Shown one piece after another: positions 35,839-50,483 of a DNA stretch of 64,000 bases. Within the stretch, counting starts at the first letter, position 1. Each line of letters begins with the position of its first letter. The notes beneath the pieces are model-generated. The model was not told where the DNA came from. It worked only from the letters and a program-made list of their open reading frames with translations, and did no database searches. The translations under genes were made by a program, and so were the position numbers. The stretch covers positions 124,001-188,000 of the forward strand of contig JAAXNY010000001.1 in the NCBI GenBank assembly GCA_013420905.1, given 5' to 3'. The stretch is from Collybia mongolica (taxonomy: Eukaryota; Basidiomycota; Agaricomycetes; Agaricales; Clitocybaceae).

Positions 35839-36844
35839 ATGGCCCCAGCGTCCGAGGGTGTCAATGGCCGGCCTGTGAAGACCTCAGAGCGCTGTGAGCT
35901 TCTCTCTTTTCCGTCTCGTCTGGATAATGATAAGATTTGTCTCAGTTTGTCAACAGGATTCGGATGTAGCCTTTAGATCCTGTGACGATACCTTATTCCA
36001 CATCCATCGGAAGAACCTGGAGACAAATGCTGGCGGCTTTCCTCCTCAGGAGTTCGAAACCAGGGAAGAGGTCGTTCCGCTCACTGAAACCGCGTCCACG
36101 CTGGAGCTGTTGTTTCAGTTCATCTACCCGCAGCGCCACCCTGATCTTGAATCCACGGAATTCGAGATTCTTTGTCCTCTCGCGGAAGCCGCAGAGAAAT
36201 ACGAAGTATACTCGGCCATCAACATATGCAAAATACGGATGAGGTATTCTTCGTCGATAATATCGGGTTGATTCACCAAATGTCGCCTCCAGGTACTACG
36301 TGAGAGAACACAGCCTTGCAGTCATGCTGTATGCTGCCAAACACGACTACCATGATATTGTTGGCGAAACTGCGCCTCTCTTGCTGCATACTCCGATGGA
36401 AGAAATACTTGTTAAGCTTCCTCATCACCTCGTCATTCCATGGGTGAGTAGTATCAAATAAATGCCCGCTGGTACACACGTCAAGAATGATTTTAGGTGC
36501 TATATGTTGAGAGCTGGAATAGGGTTTTGCAAAAAGCTGTTGCCTACAGTACGGGAGTGGTTGGAGGGACCAGAAATTGGGCATCCACCACCTATTACGA
36601 TCCACAAGGGCACCATGTCAGCCAACTAGCGACATACTGCGTGAACTGTAATTTCAACGTCGATATCGCCTTTGGACAAGTCCTCCGTAGGCTCGAAAAC
36701 ATTCAATCTCTAGAAAGCCTCGGTGCCGTTTTTGGTGATGTGAATAGGGTATGCTGTCCTCATACACTCCCAGTCTTCGCTTCGTGGCGTTCGTCAATTG
36801 AGGACGAAATTGACACTATTAAACCTTTAGTTGCATACCTGTAG
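35839..36844 (+). CDS. BTB/POZ domain protein 1
   Basis: Exons 35839-35893, 35946-36243, 36293-36443, 36497-36844; 283 aa. BTB domain at about residues 20-115: DSDVAFRSCDDTLFHIHRK, then LELLFQFIYPQRHPDLES and LAEAAEKYEVYSAINICK. The third exon gives the BACK-like helical part MLYAAKHDYHDIVGETAPLL and LPHHLVIPW; the last exon has a CxxC motif (CVNC) and the ending ASWRSSIEDEIDTI. BTB domains dimerise and often act as Cullin-3 adaptors or chromatin factors; for this fungal family the partner is unknown. The 298-nt and 151-nt internal exons are identical in length to those of the BTB genes at 38.6 and 44.7 kb, showing common descent. Confidence 0.85.
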
Positions 36845-38626: not shown

Positions 38627-39614
38627 ATGTCTATCCTCGAATCTGGACCGCCAGTCGAAGACCAGCCACAAATCTCTGAGAGATGTGAGTGGTATCTGGT
38701 TCGCATATTCACAAACTAATGTTTGAAAGTCAACTTCACGGATGCGGATGTGACCTTCAAATCAAGCGACGGAATCCTCTTTAAATTGCACAAACTCAAT
38801 CTCGCCATCAACGCCAATGGATTTCCTCCGCCAGAACTCCCAACTACCGATGAAGTTGTCGAGTTATCGGAAACATCAGGTGTTCTTGAACTTCTCTTCC
38901 AATTCTGCTATCCCTATCGCCGTCCAGATCTGGAGCTGGTTGACTTCAAGGTTATCGCCTGCCTTGCCGAAGCGGCTGAGAAGTACGAAGTATTTCCGGC
39001 AATGAGTATGTGCAATATTCGGATGAGGTGTGTACCTTTTTGTTGATACGACTTTTGGGTGGTAAAGACATTATATTCAAGGGATAACATCTTCCAAAAT
39101 CCGGTTGATGTGATGTTCTATGCAGCAAAGCATGATTATACCGATATCCTAGATACGACCTATAGCCTAGTCCTCAAGGAGCCTCTAGGAGTAATAGTAA
39201 GCAAATTGCCCCCTCATTTCGTTATTCCATGGGTACGAGATTGCTGAGAACTCAATGGAAGCTGCTGCTGACTGCCCTTTCTAGATGTTGCACTATGAAC
39301 GATATAACCAGGTTCTACAACGCGCAATCGCATACTATGACAGTTGGGAACCACAACATCGCGTTCCCCAGCATATTGTCAAGAAAGCGTTTAAGGAAAG
39401 GGTTCGTGCGGAATGTGTGCTTCAGACAAAAGAGTGCATTGCTTGCCGCATTCTGCGAAAGCTTGGTCGAGGAATCATTGCGTTGATGGATCTGGACGAT
39501 GTGTTTAATCCTCGGGGTAATTGTTGTGGGGAATTCACTTATGGGCTAACGCAATGGCGTCGCGCTATCGAGAAAGATATACAGGAGATCCCACCGTTTC
39601 ATACTTTATTATAG
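38627..39614 (+). CDS. BTB/POZ domain protein 2
   Basis: Exons 38627-38684, 38730-39027, 39082-39232, 39285-39614; 278 aa. BTB core: DADVTFKSSDGILFKLHK, LELLFQFCYPYRRPDLEL, LAEAAEKYEVFPAMSMCN. It continues with VMFYAAKHDYTDIL and LPPHFVIPW, then a C-terminal exon with CVLQTKECIACRIL and TQWRRAIEKDIQEI. Same intron positions and phases as BTB 1. Its stop at 39612-39614 is only 33 nt from the original stop of BTB 3 on the other strand, so the two were tail-to-tail neighbours before the hAT element inserted. Confidence 0.85.
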
Positions 39615-39647
39615 CCTTCGTATGTATAACATTGTCGTGCCCCTGTC

Positions 39648-39702
39648 CTACAACGCCAAAACGGGGACATTCTGAAAGTCCATCTGGACCGATGCACGCC
39701 AT
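39648..39702 (-). pseudogene. detached last codons of BTB protein 3
   Basis: On the minus strand this 55-nt piece reads TGG CGT (WR) onward to a TAG at 39648-39650, encoding WRASVQMDFQNVPVLAL. The WR(A/S) start and acidic/hydrophobic end match the C-termini of BTB 1 (ASWRSSIEDE) and BTB 2 (TQWRRAIEKD). It continues the frame that is broken at 43818 by the hAT insertion: 254 nt of exon 4 upstream plus these 55 nt make 309 nt, exactly 103 codons. Confidence 0.85.
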
Positions 39703-39710
39703 TCTGCAAT
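39703..39710. repeat. target-site duplication of hAT element, left copy
   Basis: TCTGCAAT, identical to 43818-43825 on the far side of the element. An 8-bp duplication is the hallmark of hAT insertion. Confidence 0.9.
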
Positions 39711-39726
39711 TAGGGCTGAGCACCGT
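39711..39726 (+). repeat. left terminal inverted repeat of hAT element
   Basis: TAGGGCTGAGCACCGT; 15 of 16 positions match the right end in inverse orientation. Confidence 0.88.
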
Positions 39727-39885
39727 GTCCGTATATACGGCTATACGGGCACCCGTAAGACGGTTACCGTCACCGTGCCGTCTAGCCCCACAGGTGCGAC
39801 TTGACGGCACGGGTGACGGCACGGTTACCCCCCGTATCATACCGTCAACTGACGGCCGTATACGGCATGTGTACGGCTGTGTAGA
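39727..39885. repeat. left subterminal repeat region of hAT element
   Basis: Dense short motifs of the type ccgtatacgg, cacccgta and acggcacgg in both orientations. In hAT elements such clusters bind the transposase and are needed together with the terminal repeats. The role is inferred from that. Confidence 0.6.
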
Positions 39886-40143
39886 ATTGGAATTTATGAC
39901 GCGTTCATTGCGTCATTGAATTGCATAATGCCATCACACGTGCTTTGGTTTGTTTATCTGCAGAGCTCTCGGGTCACTCGGGTGTCGTTCAGCGAGCTGG
40001 CCAATCTGGAGCAGCATGTGTGCGCATCAAGATGAAATCTCCTAGTTAGGAAGGGATGCGCACAACCTATTTAATGGGCGCATTTTTGCCAACGAGAACG
40101 TCACCCTGCCCCCACTTCTTGCCTTTATCATTGGGCCATCAGT

Positions 40144-43100
40144 ATGCCTTCTCACTCCGATGCTGAGAATTGCGCGGTCGACGAGCATGGCCAACTCAAA
40201 GACGCCAACGATATCCAGTGGTTCAACTCCCCTGGCGATAACGATCCTATCCCTCTTCCCTCTGTGGAAGGAGATGCTGGCATCGACAACGATGAAGGTA
40301 TGTGTTGCCTTACTCTGCATCTTGCAAGTATTGACGGCACGCCCGCCAGTTGCCCAAGGTAGACCTAAGCGAAACAAGAATTCAGGACTACAGGATATCC
40401 TTGCCGCTGAGCGCCTCGATGAGTGGGGCGATCTCGAGAAGAAACACCGCCAACCCAAACGACGTTCAAAGAGGGTTACCAAGCATATCAAAGTTGCGGA
40501 TGATGGCTTGTCGGATCTCGAAGATGACGACGAATACGAAACCGACGAAGTTGATGGGTCTTTGCAGGCAAGCGATGCATCCGACAGTGAGGGTGGCATA
40601 TCTAATGAGGAGGTACGTGACTGACATGACTGACAATTAGTAATTCTTTCGTTTCCATCCTTCTAATGATGGTTGCAGCTCGCCGATATGCTTCCCTCAA
40701 AGACAGTGCCGAATAATATGAGGCGAGCCCATGCTGGGAAGCGGAAGCGATCTGATAAGAGCACTGTTGACGACTCTCAGCCCTCTCAAGCAACCACCCC
40801 CGCCATCACCCCTGCTAGCAGCTTCATGGACGAAAGCTCAAAGGAAACGAAACAGGTGGGTTTCGGTTGTCAAATATGTTTCTAGTACTAATGAAATTGA
40901 CTATAGACGTCGAATCCGATCTACTACTTTTATAATACCCTCCAGGCTGCTCCTCATGGCGTTAAAGCCGACGAAGGTGACAAGTTTTACCAGTGCCTTC
41001 ATGGTGGTAGGAAGGTTTTGAGGGTTACGAAGAGGATGAGGAACAATCTCAATGGTAAGGTCAATTCTTCATCAGTCACTATTTTCGACTTACACACAGT
41101 TGGGTTTTCCTTTCAGGTCTTATTGGGAATCTCAGAAGTTGCTCGCCTGACATGTTCAAATTTTATTCTTATCTCAAGGATCGCCGTCCGCATGCACCAC
41201 TCTCACCCGAGGAGAAAGGAATTGCAACCGGCGAGATTGAGCTCTCGTCTGCGAAACTCGCCGAGTTCACGCAACGTCACGACGCTCATCAGCAGTCACT
41301 CAAGAATGCATTTGTACGGCAACAGGAGAAAGCAGCAGTAAGTGTTTATTTATTTTCCATTGATCGCGCTCTCTTATCACTGATATTTAGGAACCCTGGA
41401 GCCAGGAAAAATTTGAAGAGTTGTTGACAAAGTGGATTGTCGCCTCCGACCAACCGTTTGAAGAGGTGGAGAAACCAGAACTTGCTGACCTCCTCAACTA
41501 TGTAAATCGATCTGCGTCATCACTCAAGATCCCCAGCCGTTTCACAGTCAAGCGGCGCGTGATGAAAATGAATGCCGAAGGTATCCAAGAAATGAAGGAT
41601 TTGTTTGCAGTACGTCGTAATGTCAACCACACATCGTGATTCAACGTTCTGACTTGTAAGTAGAAAATTGATGGCAAGGTGGCTGTTTCGCTCGATGGCT
41701 GGACATCAGGCAACAACTATGGTTTCCTCGGCATCATTACACACTACGTAAATCCAGATACTGGTGAACTTGGTCTGTCGCAAGTTCTTGTTATTATTAT
41801 TTTCACTCAACTGTCAACAGAGGAATGTCTGATTGATTTTCGTGAACTGCTTGGCCAGCACACAGGCGAAAACATCGCAGAGGCAGTCTGGGACACACTT
41901 TGTATGTTCGGTATCCAAGGAAAGGTGAATTGTATTTGTTCTCAATGCCGATAATATGCTCAACTTGCAGTAGACAATTGCCTTTGTAACGGACAATGCG
42001 TCGAACATGGACACATTTGTCGATGCAATTGTTTCATTGGCCAAGAAGATGCAGATCGTTATCAACGCAGTCTGGGCACGGCTTCGTTGCATGCCGCATA
42101 CCATTCACCTTGCAGCGCTCAAGGTATGAACCAAATTATGTTGTCCTTAACCCTTCACTGATGGTTTCCAAGCTACTCAAAGCTATCGGTGCAAAACGTT
42201 CTCGTAACGATAAGAAAACCAACTCGCCTGGTGACAATTACCAGGACTCTGTCAGTGCACCACTTAGTGAGGAAGCAGACAACGATGCAGCAACCCAGGA
42301 AGGTGACGACGAAGATGAATTCTCTCCTGATGGCCCACAGGCCCCTACCGATTTTATTTTTCCAGCAGTAGATAAGGAAAGTGGTTCTTTTTAGTGGTGT
42401 TAGCCCTTTAAGCCTTGCCTAATAGTCCTCTTAGCTTCGAAAAATTGTCCGCGCTGTTCGTTCGAGTCCACAGCGGAAGGCTCGCTGGTTAGACCTAGTG
42501 TCTGATGAGCTTCGCAAGAGGAATCCTGATGCCCCATGCTACCCTCCTGCACTTATGCTCATCCTTGATGTTTCGACGCGTTGGTCTTCCACCCATCAAA
42601 TGATGCGTAAGGTTTCTTTGATTGTTTTGTGGAACTGGAACTTATCAAATTCATTACCCATAGGTCGAGCATTGCAATACGAGGCTGAGATCAATACCTT
42701 TGTGGCCCTCCGCGCAAATCGTGACCTCCGTGATCTCGAACTCACAGAAGATGAGTGGTCGTCGATTAGGCTTGTAGCTACATGGCTCGAGAGGTTCCGA
42801 GATGCCACGACCCAGATGTCTGCTACGCAACAGCCCATGCTATCACATACACATGCCATCTTTCGCGGTCTACAGGAACATCTTCGTGAATCCATTCGCG
42901 ACTTACCCACTAACATTGATCCTTGCATCCGAGAGGGACTTCTAGCTGCTCACCAAAAGCTGAGCGAGTACTATTACAGGTTCGACCAGTCCCCGTTTTA
43001 CATCTGGGCTGCACGTATGTTCATCTTGTTTCCATTATGCCTTAACTGATTGATACATTGGTAGTCCTTGACCCGAGGATCACCTATGAAGGCTTGAAGC

Positions 43101-43626
43101 TCGACTTTGCTGATGATCCTACTCTTCTCGCCGATCTGGAGAAGTCCAAGGCACTGCTTCGAAAATACTACGACGAAAACTATGCAGTTTCACATGTGCC
43201 CTCTGATGACATCAATAGCAGTCGCTCGAAGTCTTCTGGCCCAGCAGACTTTATGTCACGCTACGAATCCATTGTACCCGACAATATTGACGAACTGGAG
43301 GAATATTTCAAGATCAAGCGCAAGGATTTCAGGAAATGTGATCCGCTTCGGTGGTGGAGGAGCCAACGGGAGGATTGGCCTAATCTCTACCGTCTTGCTT
43401 GTGATGTGCTTTGTATTCCAGGTTTGTGGTGTTCCTCTCCATTATTGTTTATCTATTTATGGTGCTTTTAGGGTCTGCTGTCGCAGTCGAACGTCTTTTT
43501 TCAAGCGGCAGGGACACCATCTCACTTCGCCGTGCCAGCCTTCGGCCAGACACTATTCGAGCCCTTATGGTCCTCAAGCACCGCCTTCGTCGCATGCGCC
43601 AGCGTAGTGTAATCGCTCTAGAGTAG
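40144..43626 (+). CDS. hAT transposase (BED finger, RNase H-like core, hATC dimerisation domain)
   Basis: About 14 exons, starting 40144-40297, 40359-40612, 40679-40855, 40907-41054, 41117-41337, 41391-41609, 41664-41772, 41821-41924, 41974-42123, 42173-42367, 42435-42606 and ending with 43471-43626; every junction I phased is consistent and no stop interrupts it. Order: basic/acidic N-tail, a BED-like DNA-binding region (GDKFYQCLHGGRKVLRVTKR), first catalytic aspartate in AVSLDGWTSG, second in AFVTDNASNMD, HTIHLAAL, STRWSSTHQMM, a helical insertion, and the C-terminal hATC motif AVAVERLFSSGRDTISLRR. A very acidic segment (about 42225-42365) interrupts the core. It would cut and paste this element through the paired ends at 39711 and 43817. 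Complete, so potentially active. Confidence 0.92.
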
Positions 43627-43659
43627 AATTTCTTATAAACTATGAAAATGGTTGTTTTC

Positions 43660-43801
43660 ATCCCGTAACGATCCCGTTTACGGCCGTATCTGCACCCGTA
43701 CCGTGCCGTTCAGCTCTTGTGAAAGGACTATACGGGTACGGGAACGGGCATACCCGTAACCGTCTGCCACCGTGAGTATACGGCCGTACACCGTATACGG
43801 G
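43660..43801. repeat. right subterminal repeat region of hAT element
   Basis: The same short motifs as at the left end (acggccgtat, cccgtacc, cgtatacgg) in both orientations, just inside the right terminal repeat. Confidence 0.6.
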
Positions 43802-43817
43802 ACGGTGCTCACCCCTA
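43802..43817 (-). repeat. right terminal inverted repeat of hAT element
   Basis: Complement reads TAGGGGTGAGCACCGT, pairing with the left end at 15 of 16 positions. Confidence 0.88.
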
Positions 43818-43825
43818 TCTGCAAT
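43818..43825. repeat. target-site duplication of hAT element, right copy
   Basis: TCTGCAAT, identical to the left copy. It lies within the last exon of BTB gene 3. Confidence 0.9.
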
Positions 43826-44765
43826 CCCTCCCGGTTCCGGTCCACAACCGGAGCGCTTGACATCAAATACAGCGTCCAAGTTGAGCAACGCCGATAGTAG
43901 GCCCTTCCCTGCCTGCAGGTTAAGAAGAACTTGTTTCCCTAAGTGGGTTTCATGACGTTGCCCACAGAGTTCACAATACGATCCACACTTGGGGTTGTTT
44001 AGCCCTGGTGTCGTATGATAGTACGCTATTGCTCTATTTAGAACATCGGCATATCGTTCGCGTTGCAATACCTAGAAGATATGCGCATGGTAATGAGGCA
44101 GATAGGAATATGAATCGAAACTTCTTACCCATGGTATAACCAGATGAGAAGGTAATAATGGTAAAATTTTCGACAGGGGTTCATCCAGCAGTAAAGGCGC
44201 TGTTTTGGCAAGAAGTTCGGGGTGGTTCGCCCTTGCAGAGTATTCCATAACTTCAACGGCATGTTGAGGTAGAGTTCTCCTAATCACAAAGTAGGCAATA
44301 CCCATTGACGCAAAACGATTATATGGTAATAATGGAACGTACTTCATCCGAACGTTGCAAATGTTGGTTGCAGCAAAAACTTGATATTTCTCTGCAGCTT
44401 CCGCAACAGGCGCGAAGACGTTGAACTCCAGTGACATCAAATCCGGGTGACGGTCAGGGTAGCAAAATCGAAAAAGCATGTCAAGGATTGTCGATGCTTC
44501 TGGGAGGTGGATGGTCGTATCTGTTGAATCTTCCGATGGTGAGGGAAATCCTGTTGCATTAACTATGAGATTCTTCTTGTGGACAAGGAAACGAACGTTG
44601 TCGCTAGATTGATATGATATATCAGAGTCAGGTGAACTAACTGGAAGGAAAGCGACTTTTAGATTTAAATGTTGGGGTTCACAAAGACAGCGACATACAT
44701 TTGTCAGAGAATCTGACCTCGTGAGACCCAGAATGCTTATTGTCAGTAGGTTGATGAGCGGACAT
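43818..44765 (-). pseudogene. BTB/POZ domain protein 3, split by the hAT element
   Basis: Minus-strand exons 44765-44699, 44640-44343, 44279-44129 and 44071-43818 (exon 4 then broken). Internal exon lengths (298 and 151 nt) equal those of BTB 1 and 2. BTB core: DSDISYQSSDNVRFLVHK, LDMLFRFCYPDRHPDLMS, VAEAAEKYQVFAATNICN; then LLPSHLVIPW and a C-terminal exon with YCELCGQRHETHLGK. The native last 18 codons lie beyond the transposon at 39648-39702. As the DNA stands, translation would run into the hAT end and stop at 43658, replacing 18 residues by roughly 55 foreign ones (DRGEHRPVYG...). The BTB domain is complete, so a partly working fusion cannot be excluded. Confidence 0.85.
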
Positions 44766-45367
44766 GATCAACAACGATCGATCGGGAGTGGAGAAAAACG
44801 TGTATAGCTCACATTCTCAACCGATGAAATGCCTCATGGCAACTGATGATAGGCGCCCATAGATGAAATCTTCATACTTGACAGGAAACACATTCTTGAA
44901 GATTTGTGGTGCCTTTATCGTAAGGCCAGTAATCTCAGTTAAAGAATAGAGGCGAGGTCAAGGTGAGTTGTAGAGCAACTGGAAGCGGGTCTCGCGGTGG
45001 TGAACCCGGGTGAGCGTCACATGTTATCTACCATGTTTCGCCTGCAAACATCCTCAATTCTCAATTCTTGGCCTTGTCATAGTTGTAAATACTACATCGA
45101 TCAAGCTATCAAGCGTAAGATCTTCTCTTATGACCAACATAAGTCCAGGCCTCATTGGATAAAATACATTTGAAACTATGCCTTGGTCCATACATCATGA
45201 GTGTCCTGCAAAACTGCGGTTAAACTCCCACATTTTTCGCTGTAAGGGACTCCCATGGCGATTTCAAATATTTCCACAACTAAATATAAGGAAGAACTAT
45301 TCGCAAATTTGATGTACTGGGAGGCTAGGTAATGGCAATGATAATATCATATAGCGTTGTGGATAAA
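44766..45367. other. intergenic between BTB 3 and the membrane-protein gene
   Basis: No gene recognised. It must contain the BTB 3 promoter and the 3' flank of the membrane-protein gene. Confidence 0.4.
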
Positions 45368-46891
45368 TCAAAAGTGAGGGATAAATTTCGTCCATTCCAT
45401 GCCTTGAAGGGCCCCAGGAGAGAGTTTCCTGAGTGTCATGAACGCCTGTACAATTAGCACAAGTCGTGCGGTAATATAAATAAGTACGCATAAAACCAGG
45501 AGAATGTTTCGAAGTACTGCGATGATCAACAAAAAATACCAGCCCAATAAGTTGATGCTGAACGCGTCTGCGCACGCGATCCTGGGGTTGGTGAATTTGA
45601 AACTCGCCGACAACAGTGCTATAATATAAGGGCTGCATGCCATCACCATTGAAGAGCTGCGCCAGAGTACTTGCTCTTGACGAGATGGGAATTGGAAAGA
45701 CCATGCAATGCAGTGGATTCCACCAAATATGCTGCCGAGGATGACGCATGCAACGGCCATCCATAAAAATGTATATCTGTCTGAGGAGACTTTCGCCGCA
45801 TAGAATGTCGACACTCTGCCTGCTTCAGACGATTTACCCATAATTCCGTAAATTACATGTTTGAGCCCCCGCATTGCAGGGGAGACTGGATAAGCGAATC
45901 GGACTGCCCAGCGCGATGCCTTCACGACCCTGGGAAGGGAGTAGAATTCCGCTGGTTCATGGTTTGGCTGCATTGTCATGTGAATCGGCAGTGGCAATGG
46001 TGGAGGGGATGACTGTAAATGAGTGATAACAGATAATTCACTGCGCATTTCTTGTTCTTGTTCTCCAGCTGCAGGATGTGTGCCCATTTCTAGTGTATCG
46101 GTATGGGATTGGGTTGGAGAGCCCGTATTGAAATCGTGCACTATGTCATTGCTGACTTTGGAACCGACATTCACTGGATGGGGATATCGTACGTCTACAG
46201 GTTTGTTCCACCAGAAGAAATATGTCACAATATTCAGTGTAGCAAATGCCAGAGTTAGTAGCTCCAATTCCGTGATAACGAGGCCAGTCGAACCACGAAC
46301 AAGGCATTGGATAAGGAACCATGTCGTCTGAAGGGTCACAACCCCTTTTGTAAACCCATCCCCTTTACTTTTATCCTGGATTTCTGCTTCGGTGATTCTC
46401 GGCCACTCAATGTCTCCTCTACTATGTAGGGCTTCCAAGGTCTCGAGATCTAGTGGGCGTCCGGGTCGGCCCTCAACAAAGAGCATAAAACCTCCCATCT
46501 GCAGAAAGTGCCCATGGGTCGTAGTCCATCCTTGTGCTAGGTGTGGATATGAAATAATTAGAGCTGAGACTTATGCCAGGAGAATATATTATAATGCAGA
46601 GAACAACATACCCTTATGGCGCTGTCCAATTTTCCGAGCACTGTACCATTGCCTCATTGCCCATAAGATGATTACCTCTGGTGCAATCAATCCACACAAC
46701 ATCAAACCAACACGTCGGAAAGAAACCATGATCCCTGAATCAGAGGTGGCAGGAATATTTGGGTGGATGGCAATCCAGGTGCAGGCAAATATTGTCATGA
46801 GACAGCTCCAAGTCATATCCCAGACATTTCTTTGGTCTGGGGGATCTGTTATGGGGAGCATTGTAGCAGTGTTAATGAGGTCTGAGTGCAT
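45368..46891 (-). CDS. polytopic membrane protein, fungal family of unknown function
   Basis: Exons 46891-46612 and 46530-45368, 480 aa. It belongs to a family widespread in mushrooms and recognised by these motifs: an N-terminal CTWIAIHPNIP, RRVGLMLCGLIAPEVIILWA with a following RQWYSARKI, GWTTTHGHFLQMGGFM across the exon junction, ITEAEIQDKSKGD, VTLQTTWFLIQCLVRGSTGL, TELELLTLAFATLNIVTYFF and WWNKP. Then a polar loop, and further helices near the C-terminus (FLWMAVACVILGSIFGGIHC and LIIAVLRNILLVLCVLIYI). About seven to eight helices in all. No enzymatic motif is visible and the role is not known. The start is the first ATG after an upstream in-frame stop. Confidence 0.75.
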
Positions 46892-47914: not shown

Positions 47915-49480
47915 GTGTCATTTTATTTTGTTTGTTTTTGCCCTCATCCACACTCCACGAAGAACAGTCTATTTGTCTGATCCAGCTAGAGCTTTGAAAA
48001 CTTCCATGGCTATTATTTTACTCATGCCCTAATTGCTTAGGATAGTGCGTTGATGCAACAAGTCAGAAGAGCTGGGTTGTGGTGCGGAACAGGAAGAATT
48101 GTCTAAGGTGACGTTGATGCGCTTGACCAGTGGTTAAACATCTCTAAAGAGTTTCTACCATGCGTCATTAGCTCATCCAAGTCCCCGGACCTGCCCCATT
48201 CAGCATAAACGACTCTTGTCTTTCAAGCTCTTGTGACCATACTAGATGGGCCCTTATTCGGCTGTTGTGATTGGCTAGCACCTTGGACGTTGCGGAAGGA
48301 GGGCTAAGGAAAACATCGGAGATGACACAGCATGAATCTTCTAGTGTCAGTACTTGCTATATTTTCCAGCTTTGTGTCTACATCTATGCAATTAGGCCCA
48401 TGACATGTGCTTTCCACGCAGCACATAATTCTTGAGGTCTCAGACCCTCGATGACAACCAACGACTGTTTGGGAAGGTGAACGGATACAGATGGAACTAT
48501 AGCAGGTTTATCACAATCCACCATCAGTGTTATATAGTATATAAGGCACGTCTCAGTCTATCGCAATCCTGGTTCTTCGCTCGTCTGCACTTAACAATGC
48601 TAATCCTTAGCAGTCTTCCCTCAATTAGTTCGACCATACCGCATCCAGGCATCATTGGGATGCTGGTATATCAGGATTTGGAGTCGTATTGTTACACGAT
48701 ACGCCATATACAAGGATTGTATCCATTATAGCTCTTGGACATAAGCATTTGGATATTGCTCGGTAATTGGTACATGAAAAATGCGGATCTGAGCACACTA
48801 TATTCATTGTTGCTACGTGGCGTTTGGTATCTCTCCAGGCTACCCCCGTATCCGCGGTCTCCCCGTCGAAGTCGTGCACCTGGACAAAAGGAGACCACTT
48901 ATTCACGCTGGTGGTATATGAATTGTGGTTATAATACTTTTAAAAGGTACACCCGTAACAGCCGGCTGTCTTACTCGAGGTTCTTCACGTTGGCAACTGG
49001 GCCATGGAAGTTTTGAGATCCGCCATACGTGGGAATTGAATACTTAGTTTAGAACCTCGATATACTGCTTGCACCTTTCAGGAACGCGTTGGAGAAGTAT
49101 GCGTTGCTGAAGAAGATGCCACTTTTGAACCCTCCGAGAGCATAAATATCCTACCGATCTCCTTGCCAGAAATTCACTGGCCACGGTAAGTATTGGTCGT
49201 TCAGTTTGTCGTATGCCTAGCGTGCTATTTGAAGACTGCTTCGTCTCACCTCACTCCAATCACGTAAAACTTGAGACTTCCAAAACCCATATGGTGGCTT
49301 CGCAACAAGGAAGGGCTATACAAGGCAAACGGAGCTCCTAATCTAATCGCTTCTTCACAAGCTTCCAGGCCCTATTGTTGCTACCACGAGGACTACACGA
49401 GCCATCTATCAGAAGTAAAAAGTACAGCGCCAAACGTTCTTGCCTTGAAATCTCTCAGCTCTGCCCTGATGAGTACTCGC
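47915..49480. other. 1.6 kb with possible exon remnants, no gene assigned
   Basis: One stretch, 49081-49185, is bounded by ttcag and gtaagt and encodes ERVGEVCVAEEDATFEPSES, which looks like an exon. A frame near 48810-48930 (FGISPGYPRIRGLPVEVVHL) is also protein-like. I could not join them into a gene. Confidence 0.25.
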
Positions 49481-49486
49481 TCTATC

Positions 49487-50483
49487 ATGTCGGATCCAGA
49501 CCCAGTACCTCACTGGGACCAACCCAATGTCCATACCTCTGAGCGTTGTGAGTGCCTGTGTTTCCCAATCATACTAGCTGCTCAGATGAGTTTAGTTTGC
49601 GCGGCAGATGCAGATGTGTCATTCTCCTCAGATGACGGCGTGCTCTTCCACCTCCATAGAAAGTATCTAGAAGTAAACTCCGAAGACATTTTGCCATCCA
49701 GAGCTTATACTGAGCATGACTTCATTCTAATGTTCAGCTATACTTGAACTGCTTTTCCAGTTCATTTACCCAGGGCGCCATCCTTTCCTTCCTTCCGTGG
49801 GTTTCGAAACGCTCGCACCGCTCGCTGAAGCTGCTGAGAAGTACAAGGTATATGCTGCAATGAATGCTTGCAGGATGTGTATGATGTAAGCCCTCGAGTC
49901 TTGCTATTCCTTCCCATAGCTCTAAAACCTGGGCTCAGAAATATACTACCCGAGAACCCCAAAGAAATAATGGCATATGCTGTGAAAGATAACTACCCCG
50001 AGATCATGAGCCGTGCTGCTCCCCTTCTTCTGGATATATCCCTTACCGAGATTCTCGAGAAACTGCCACAAAACTTGGTTGTTCCCTGGATACGTCTTTC
50101 CATCCATATATGATATGGGTATTAAATTCAGTAATGGCGGCGATACAGAGGCACGTTTTCACAGCAAATGGATGGATTGTATACAATCTGCTTGCCGCTT
50201 CCGCACAACCGTTTATGAACAAGGACTGACTGGTACATTCCATTGCCGCTATGGCGACCACACCACTAGCCAGGTTTGCAGCTCATGCTCAAAAAGGCCG
50301 GAAACCGCCATTATTTGTGTTCTAAGCGAGCTCCACAAAGGACCAATATCCCTGAGATATCTGGACCGTACTTTCGACCTTAAGTTGGTATGCTGTGACC
50401 GCATTAAGCCAGCATTCTTGGCATGGCGCCACAAAGTGGAAGCTGAGATACTAAATATTCCAAACTTCATGTCGTTCCTATAA
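49487..50483 (+). pseudogene. BTB/POZ domain protein 4, apparently decaying
   Basis: Start near 49487 (MSDPDPVPHWDQP). The BTB core is recognisable: DADVSFSSDDGVLFHLHRK, LELLFQFIYPGRHPFLPS, LAEAAEKYKVYAAMNACR; then MAYAVKDNYPEIMSRAAPLL and LPQNLVVPW, and a C-terminal exon with CSSCSK and LAWRHKVEAEILNI. Two defects show: the frame shifts between about 49720 and 49745 inside the BTB domain, and the usual donor after VVPW (gtgag or gtacg in the siblings) reads atacgt at about 50090. A downstream gtcttt donor could rescue the second. It may be a pseudogene or a gene with altered splicing. Confidence 0.65.

Follow-up and report, generated by a model that had tools for sequence, protein, structure and literature searches.

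Among the known systems closest to the one reported here is Ac/Ds of maize, a hAT system with an 8-base-pair (bp) target duplication, C/TAGGG ends, short repeats in its terminal 200 bp, a terminal inverted repeat (TIR) of 11 bp and a transposase of 807 amino acids (PMC3260210). In a window of 64,000 nucleotides from Collybia mongolica (the whole stretch of DNA analysed, contig JAAXNY010000001.1, positions 124,001 to 188,000) we identified an element which resembles Ac/Ds in its 8-bp duplication, its TAGGG-type ends and the short repeats (ACGG) within its terminal 200 bp. It is unlike Ac/Ds in that its TIR, of 16 bp, differs beyond TAGGG, its transposase has 924 amino acids from 14 modelled exons and its host is a fungus; also, an exact end search, which mutated ends would escape, found no short derivative with the same TIRs in this genome. 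With Hermes, a hAT transposase of solved structure (6dww and others), the likeness is confined to the C-terminal region of the transposase, residues 798-909, where it was the top solved-structure match in a single-sequence search (E 6e-13), while motifs of the transposase are common to hAT transposases of other Agaricales (Tetrapyrgos, Agrocybe, Armillaria, Lyophyllum and Psilocybe). We conclude, with a probability of roughly 0.93, that a full-length hAT element of a small, recently active family has inserted into one gene of a BTB array in this agaric-type fungus, within the last exon of that gene. Both strands of positions 39648-44765 were read, and the features of the locus are as follows.

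44699..44765, minus strand: exon 1 of the BTB gene (gene model)
44343..44640, minus strand: exon 2, with the bulk of the BTB-like domain (gene model and Pfam)
44129..44279, minus strand: exon 3 (gene model)
43818..44071, minus strand: first 254 nucleotides of the last exon, ahead of the insertion (gene model and join scoring)
43818..43825, no strand: target-site duplication TCTGCAAT, right copy (sequence)
43802..43817, minus strand: right TIR TAGGGGTGAGCACCGT, equal to the left one at 15/16 positions (sequence, exact end search)
43658..43817, minus strand: continuation of the BTB frame inside the element for 53 residues, up to a stop (translation)
42179..42181, plus strand: transposase codon 518, AAA (Lys) here and GAA (Glu) in the 4 other copies (copy comparison; a CpG transition)
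40144..43626, plus strand: transposase gene, 14 modelled exons, 924 amino acids (modelled from frame and GT/AG sites only)
39711..43817, plus strand: hAT element, 4107 bp (comparison with 4 other full copies in the genome)
39711..39726, plus strand: left TIR TAGGGCTGAGCACCGT (sequence, exact end search)
39703..39710, no strand: target-site duplication TCTGCAAT, left copy (sequence)
39648..39702, minus strand: final 55 nucleotides of the last exon, cut off by the insertion, with WR motif and stop (paralogue profile)

The first-pass annotation had claimed that a hAT insertion splits the BTB gene, and the TIRs, the exact 8-bp duplication and the hAT transposase bore this out to the base: the element entered the last coding exon of the minus-strand BTB gene by transposition. 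The ACGG repeats cluster at its ends, with 19 and 18 occurrences in the outer 200 bp of either side vs 12 in the inner 3707 bp. No Rfam match reached the gathering threshold. Upstream of the insertion the frame of the BTB exons, as modelled from the sequence, is open, and the three GT/AG introns between them measure 58, 63 and 57 nucleotides. When 39702 is joined to 43818, which amounts to removing the element and one 8-bp duplication, translation yields, just as the annotation had proposed, a 309-nucleotide last exon in frame; it closes with a terminal stop, and the BTB protein has 274 amino acids. The Pfam BTB match of the split-gene protein (E 0.11) lies under the curated cut-off, as does that of an exon of a BTB paralogue (E 0.034); PF00651 is present in the database homologues P0001, P0006 and P0008 of the joined protein.

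The same annotation had placed the missing C-terminal codons, with the WR motif and the stop, just beyond the left end of the element. We scored this against a profile of paralogous last exons, gathered from genome loci and the window, from which the split gene was excluded; 16 of the 32 profile matches were kept, and the other 16 rows (same-place repeats, four rows of the split gene itself, one near-duplicate and one weak fragment) were dropped. When 43818 was joined to each position from 39102 to 43816, the join at 39702 ranked first of 4715 with 33.6 bits vs a mean of 16.2 (standard deviation 1.06); ranks 2-14 were in-frame variants with the same tail, and the top unrelated join reached 23.7 bits. 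On this profile the part upstream of the insertion scored 17.0 bits by itself and the occupied allele 14.9 bits. The common form of the last exon in this family is W(R), then about 17-20 residues and a stop, to which the empty-site join conforms; W-R stands near the C-terminus in 11/16 paralogous last exons, and the remaining 5 have W with a different residue. The placement of the codons is thereby confirmed, and the join of the severed end is more than chance. Exon-level BTB paralogue matches number 43 in the genome, the split gene's own pieces counted in. At least four BTB-type genes lie in the window (35879-36844, 38720-39614, 39648-44765 and 49268-50483), and further BTB-type matches are grouped on contigs C10 and C15.

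It had also been stated that the BTB gene ends abruptly at the right end of the element. This holds for the native part, but the frame continues for 53 codons into the element to the stop at 43658, the position which the first-pass annotation had itself named as the end point of a fusion transcript in its suggested test. The hAT element inserted into the last exon with duplication of its 8-bp target, and the occupied allele, as modelled, would exchange the last 18 of 274 family-typical BTB residues for 53 element-coded ones. The unrepaired gene would thus make, if anything, a fusion protein of 309 amino acids.

We searched the genome (45.97 Mb in 26 contigs) and found at least five full copies of the element, the count being a lower bound. 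The four others are 99.93-99.98% identical to the window copy; each of the five is 0-2 bases off the consensus, with five variable positions in total over 4107 bp, and all 10 exact TIR end matches in the genome are the ends of these copies. Exact 8-bp target duplications border 5/5 copies, each in different flanks, and the 924-amino-acid transposase frame of the 14-exon model runs without an internal stop in all five. Judged by this closeness to the consensus, the exact duplications and the open transposase of every copy, the insertion into the BTB gene is young, and the same sequence youth suggests that the family may be mobile. As for the other sites, the L003 insertion lies inside a 236-amino-acid open frame and that of L005 inside a 115-amino-acid frame, neither frame being matched by Pfam at E 0.01, while L002 adjoins an HsbA-like frame and L004 lies some 400 nucleotides from an epimerase-like frame, the sites of these two also being spanned by short open frames. 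Weaker internal matches to the element, of 66-77% identity, were noticed at L009, L018, L020 and L021.

The transposase carries the hAT dimerisation domain PF05699 at residues 832-910 (67.9 bits, cut-off 21.4; E 6.6e-19) and the motifs SLDGWTS, TDNAS, CMPH, STRW and AVERLFSS, and we take the catalytic D, D and E to be those in SLDGWTS, TDNAS and AVERLFSS. Among 13 aligned homologues the first of these putative catalytic residues is D in 13/13, the second is D in 12/13 (one gap) and the third is E in 9/13 (four gaps). The homologue search, in which only the 7995 candidates with the most words in common with the query were scored, returned 15 sequences, the best of them 49% identical over 98% of the query; none was near-identical, so no annotated copy from the same species was returned. 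At residue 518 Glu is found in nine of the 13 aligned homologues; Leu, Cys and Met occur once each, and the remaining homologue is gapped there. The Lys found there in the window copy may weaken that copy's own enzyme.

Beyond what the first-pass annotation had noticed, all five variable positions among the five copies are C:G to T:A transitions at CpG, one of them being the change of the conserved Glu518 to Lys. CpG bases make up 470/4107 of the element, and by simple arithmetic five random sites would all be CpG about 2 times in 100,000. A TCG-specific mutation resembling repeat-induced point mutation was ruled out by the C-to-T contexts, which are ACG in three cases, TCG in one and CCG in one. 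CpG signatures in the transposons of three basidiomycetes have been ascribed to methylation and deamination (PMC4352252), and most Basidiomycota are described as confining CpG methylation to transposon-rich regions (PMC13297926). The pattern suggests that the five hAT copies are probably CpG-methylated and beginning to mutate. A related family of short elements, seen as 8 aligned copies of 12 matching loci, has transitions in 99/992 CpG cells vs 44/2192 other G/C cells, an excess which would support CpG decay, though it does not prove it.

Members of this family (L006, L008, L011, L013, L014, L015, L016 and L017) are about 780-800 bp long and have TAGGGCTGCACACCGT-type ends; their TIR is unlike that of the window element, and nothing in them matched its transposase part. 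Exact 8-bp duplications were present in 6/8 of the copies examined. L015 (C4:804003) and L016 (C4:744259) have an identical target duplication and 30 identical bases of left flank; thus a segment carrying the insertion was probably duplicated.

The further claim that precise excision would restore the frame stands only in part. The empty site is in frame, but this is not special to the locus: since removing an element and one duplication recreates any pre-insertion sequence, the restored frame says nothing on reversibility. We enumerated joins which keep 0-8 extra duplication bases, trimming the two duplication copies only and leaving out palindromic extra bases such as occur in Ac footprints; the native BTB end was kept only with 0, 3 or 6 extra bases, and with all 8 the frame was shifted. 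Ac, itself a hAT element, leaves footprints upon excision, and in yeast about half of its excision sites are repaired by homologous recombination when a template is present (PMC4561436). Excision here could be driven by the element's own or a sister copy's transposase and would restore the BTB gene less often than it would leave a footprint that shifts the frame; an empty partner allele in the dikaryon might act as a repair template. Literature searches returned no paper on hAT excision in basidiomycetes or mushrooms, and of the titles listed by a looser search none dealt with such excision in agarics. The assembly yielded no empty allele: the right flank 43818-44900 matched its own locus only, a missing match being no proof of rarity. 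Nor was one found in the protein database, where all 10 homologues of the joined BTB protein were at most 70% identical and therefore none is an allele from the same species; of those with a named source the best two, both of Collybia nuda (70% and 60% identical), are models that by eye stop short of the last exon. Considering the youth of the family, the insertion is probably polymorphic within the species.

It could be argued that the severed end fits by coincidence, or that the flanks were joined by a rearrangement and not by an insertion. Nothing was found in favour of this view, which is rendered scarcely credible by the exact 8-bp duplication, the matching TIRs, the first rank among 4715 joins and the four other copies with the same anatomy in different flanks. 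The BTB gene might instead have been dead already, or its end dispensable, which would make the insertion neutral debris. The many BTB paralogues in the genome, which may make one copy expendable, and the removal of only 18/274 residues speak for this, whereas apart from the insertion the gene model shows neither a stop nor a frameshift nor the loss of a splice site, and the severed end still fits the family profile; on balance we regard this as unlikely.

A third possibility is that the element is spliced from the BTB RNA as a 4.1-kilobase intron. Ds1 reportedly acts as an intron in maize Adh1-Fm335, an observation attributed to Dennis and others in 1988. Introners, which are intron-like transposons, offer another comparison (PMC9860276). 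As in these, in-frame splice-like sites stand at both ends of our element: a candidate donor AGGG/GTGAGC at 43812 and candidate acceptors GCTCAG/ before 39715 and TTGCAG/ before 39703 (the slash marks the cut). Both products would be in frame with the native BTB C-terminus, with 18 or 6 extra nucleotides (6 or 2 residues); TIR cut points 5 nucleotides from each end of the element together with the 8-nucleotide duplication make the first product, by arithmetic, always 18 nucleotides longer. With matrices that are small, being drawn from 16 introns of our own gene models, the donor scores 2.2 and the acceptors 2.1 and 4.2, inside the leave-one-out native ranges of 1.6-10.7 and 0.1-7.1, the second acceptor falling mid-range, and branch-point-like words stand 44 nucleotides before the exon of the first acceptor (CTTAC) and 10 nucleotides before that of the second (CTAAT). 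Against this, among the 273 GT and 281 AG sites of the region the donor comes only 67th and the acceptors 79th and 37th, the 16 introns modelled here measure 48-67 nucleotides, so that 4.1 kilobases would be about 60 times longer, and the ends of related short families are TAGGGCTGCAC-type, without a GTGAG donor. Unlike Ds1 and the introners, the candidate intron has its large size and unremarkable site scores, concerns one gene only and is known here from sequence alone. Rescue of the BTB gene by splicing at the element ends is hence highly improbable on these grounds, and it is just as doubtful that the one-base difference between the ends, by making a donor TAGGG/GTGAGC and an acceptor GCTCAG/CCCTA, creates an insert removable at the RNA level. 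If it were true, any antisense exon insertion of the family would add 18 nucleotides, six codons' worth, with the frame kept, the insertion would not destroy the BTB gene, and introns could arise from short derivatives.

The recent insertion of a hAT element of a young family into the BTB exon is therefore our preferred explanation, and the following points weigh against it or its extensions. The gene models are predictions from the sequence; the five-copy count is a lower bound, and the ends were searched for by exact match; and no empty allele or footprint was seen in the assembly and protein database, polymorphism and mobility being argued from sequence youth. Footprint-leaving excision is taken from Ac and not from a fungal hAT element. 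Five substitutions are few and could be mimicked by assembly errors at methylated CpG, and the A/T cells of the related short family also change often (129/3216 transitions, a figure that may take in sites with a mutated consensus). Finally, residue 518 is not invariant, being Leu, Cys or Met in 3/13 homologues. In the neighbourhood of the locus, 45368-46570 on the minus strand encodes a hydrophobic protein of 400 amino acids. The database has 884 homologues of this protein, and those of the 120 listed that carry a name are from mushroom-forming fungi.

Thus, this is a young transposon insertion of an ordinary sort, though a very clean example of one, and it leaves existing knowledge of hAT elements unchanged. 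It provides a young, full-length hAT element with an open transposase in a coding exon of an agaric-type fungus, with five copies in all for comparison. The locus could serve as an excision reporter, as footprints at the target duplication would reveal how breaks made by a fungal hAT element are repaired, and the CpG transitions hint at a way in which a young element may be disarmed by methylation.

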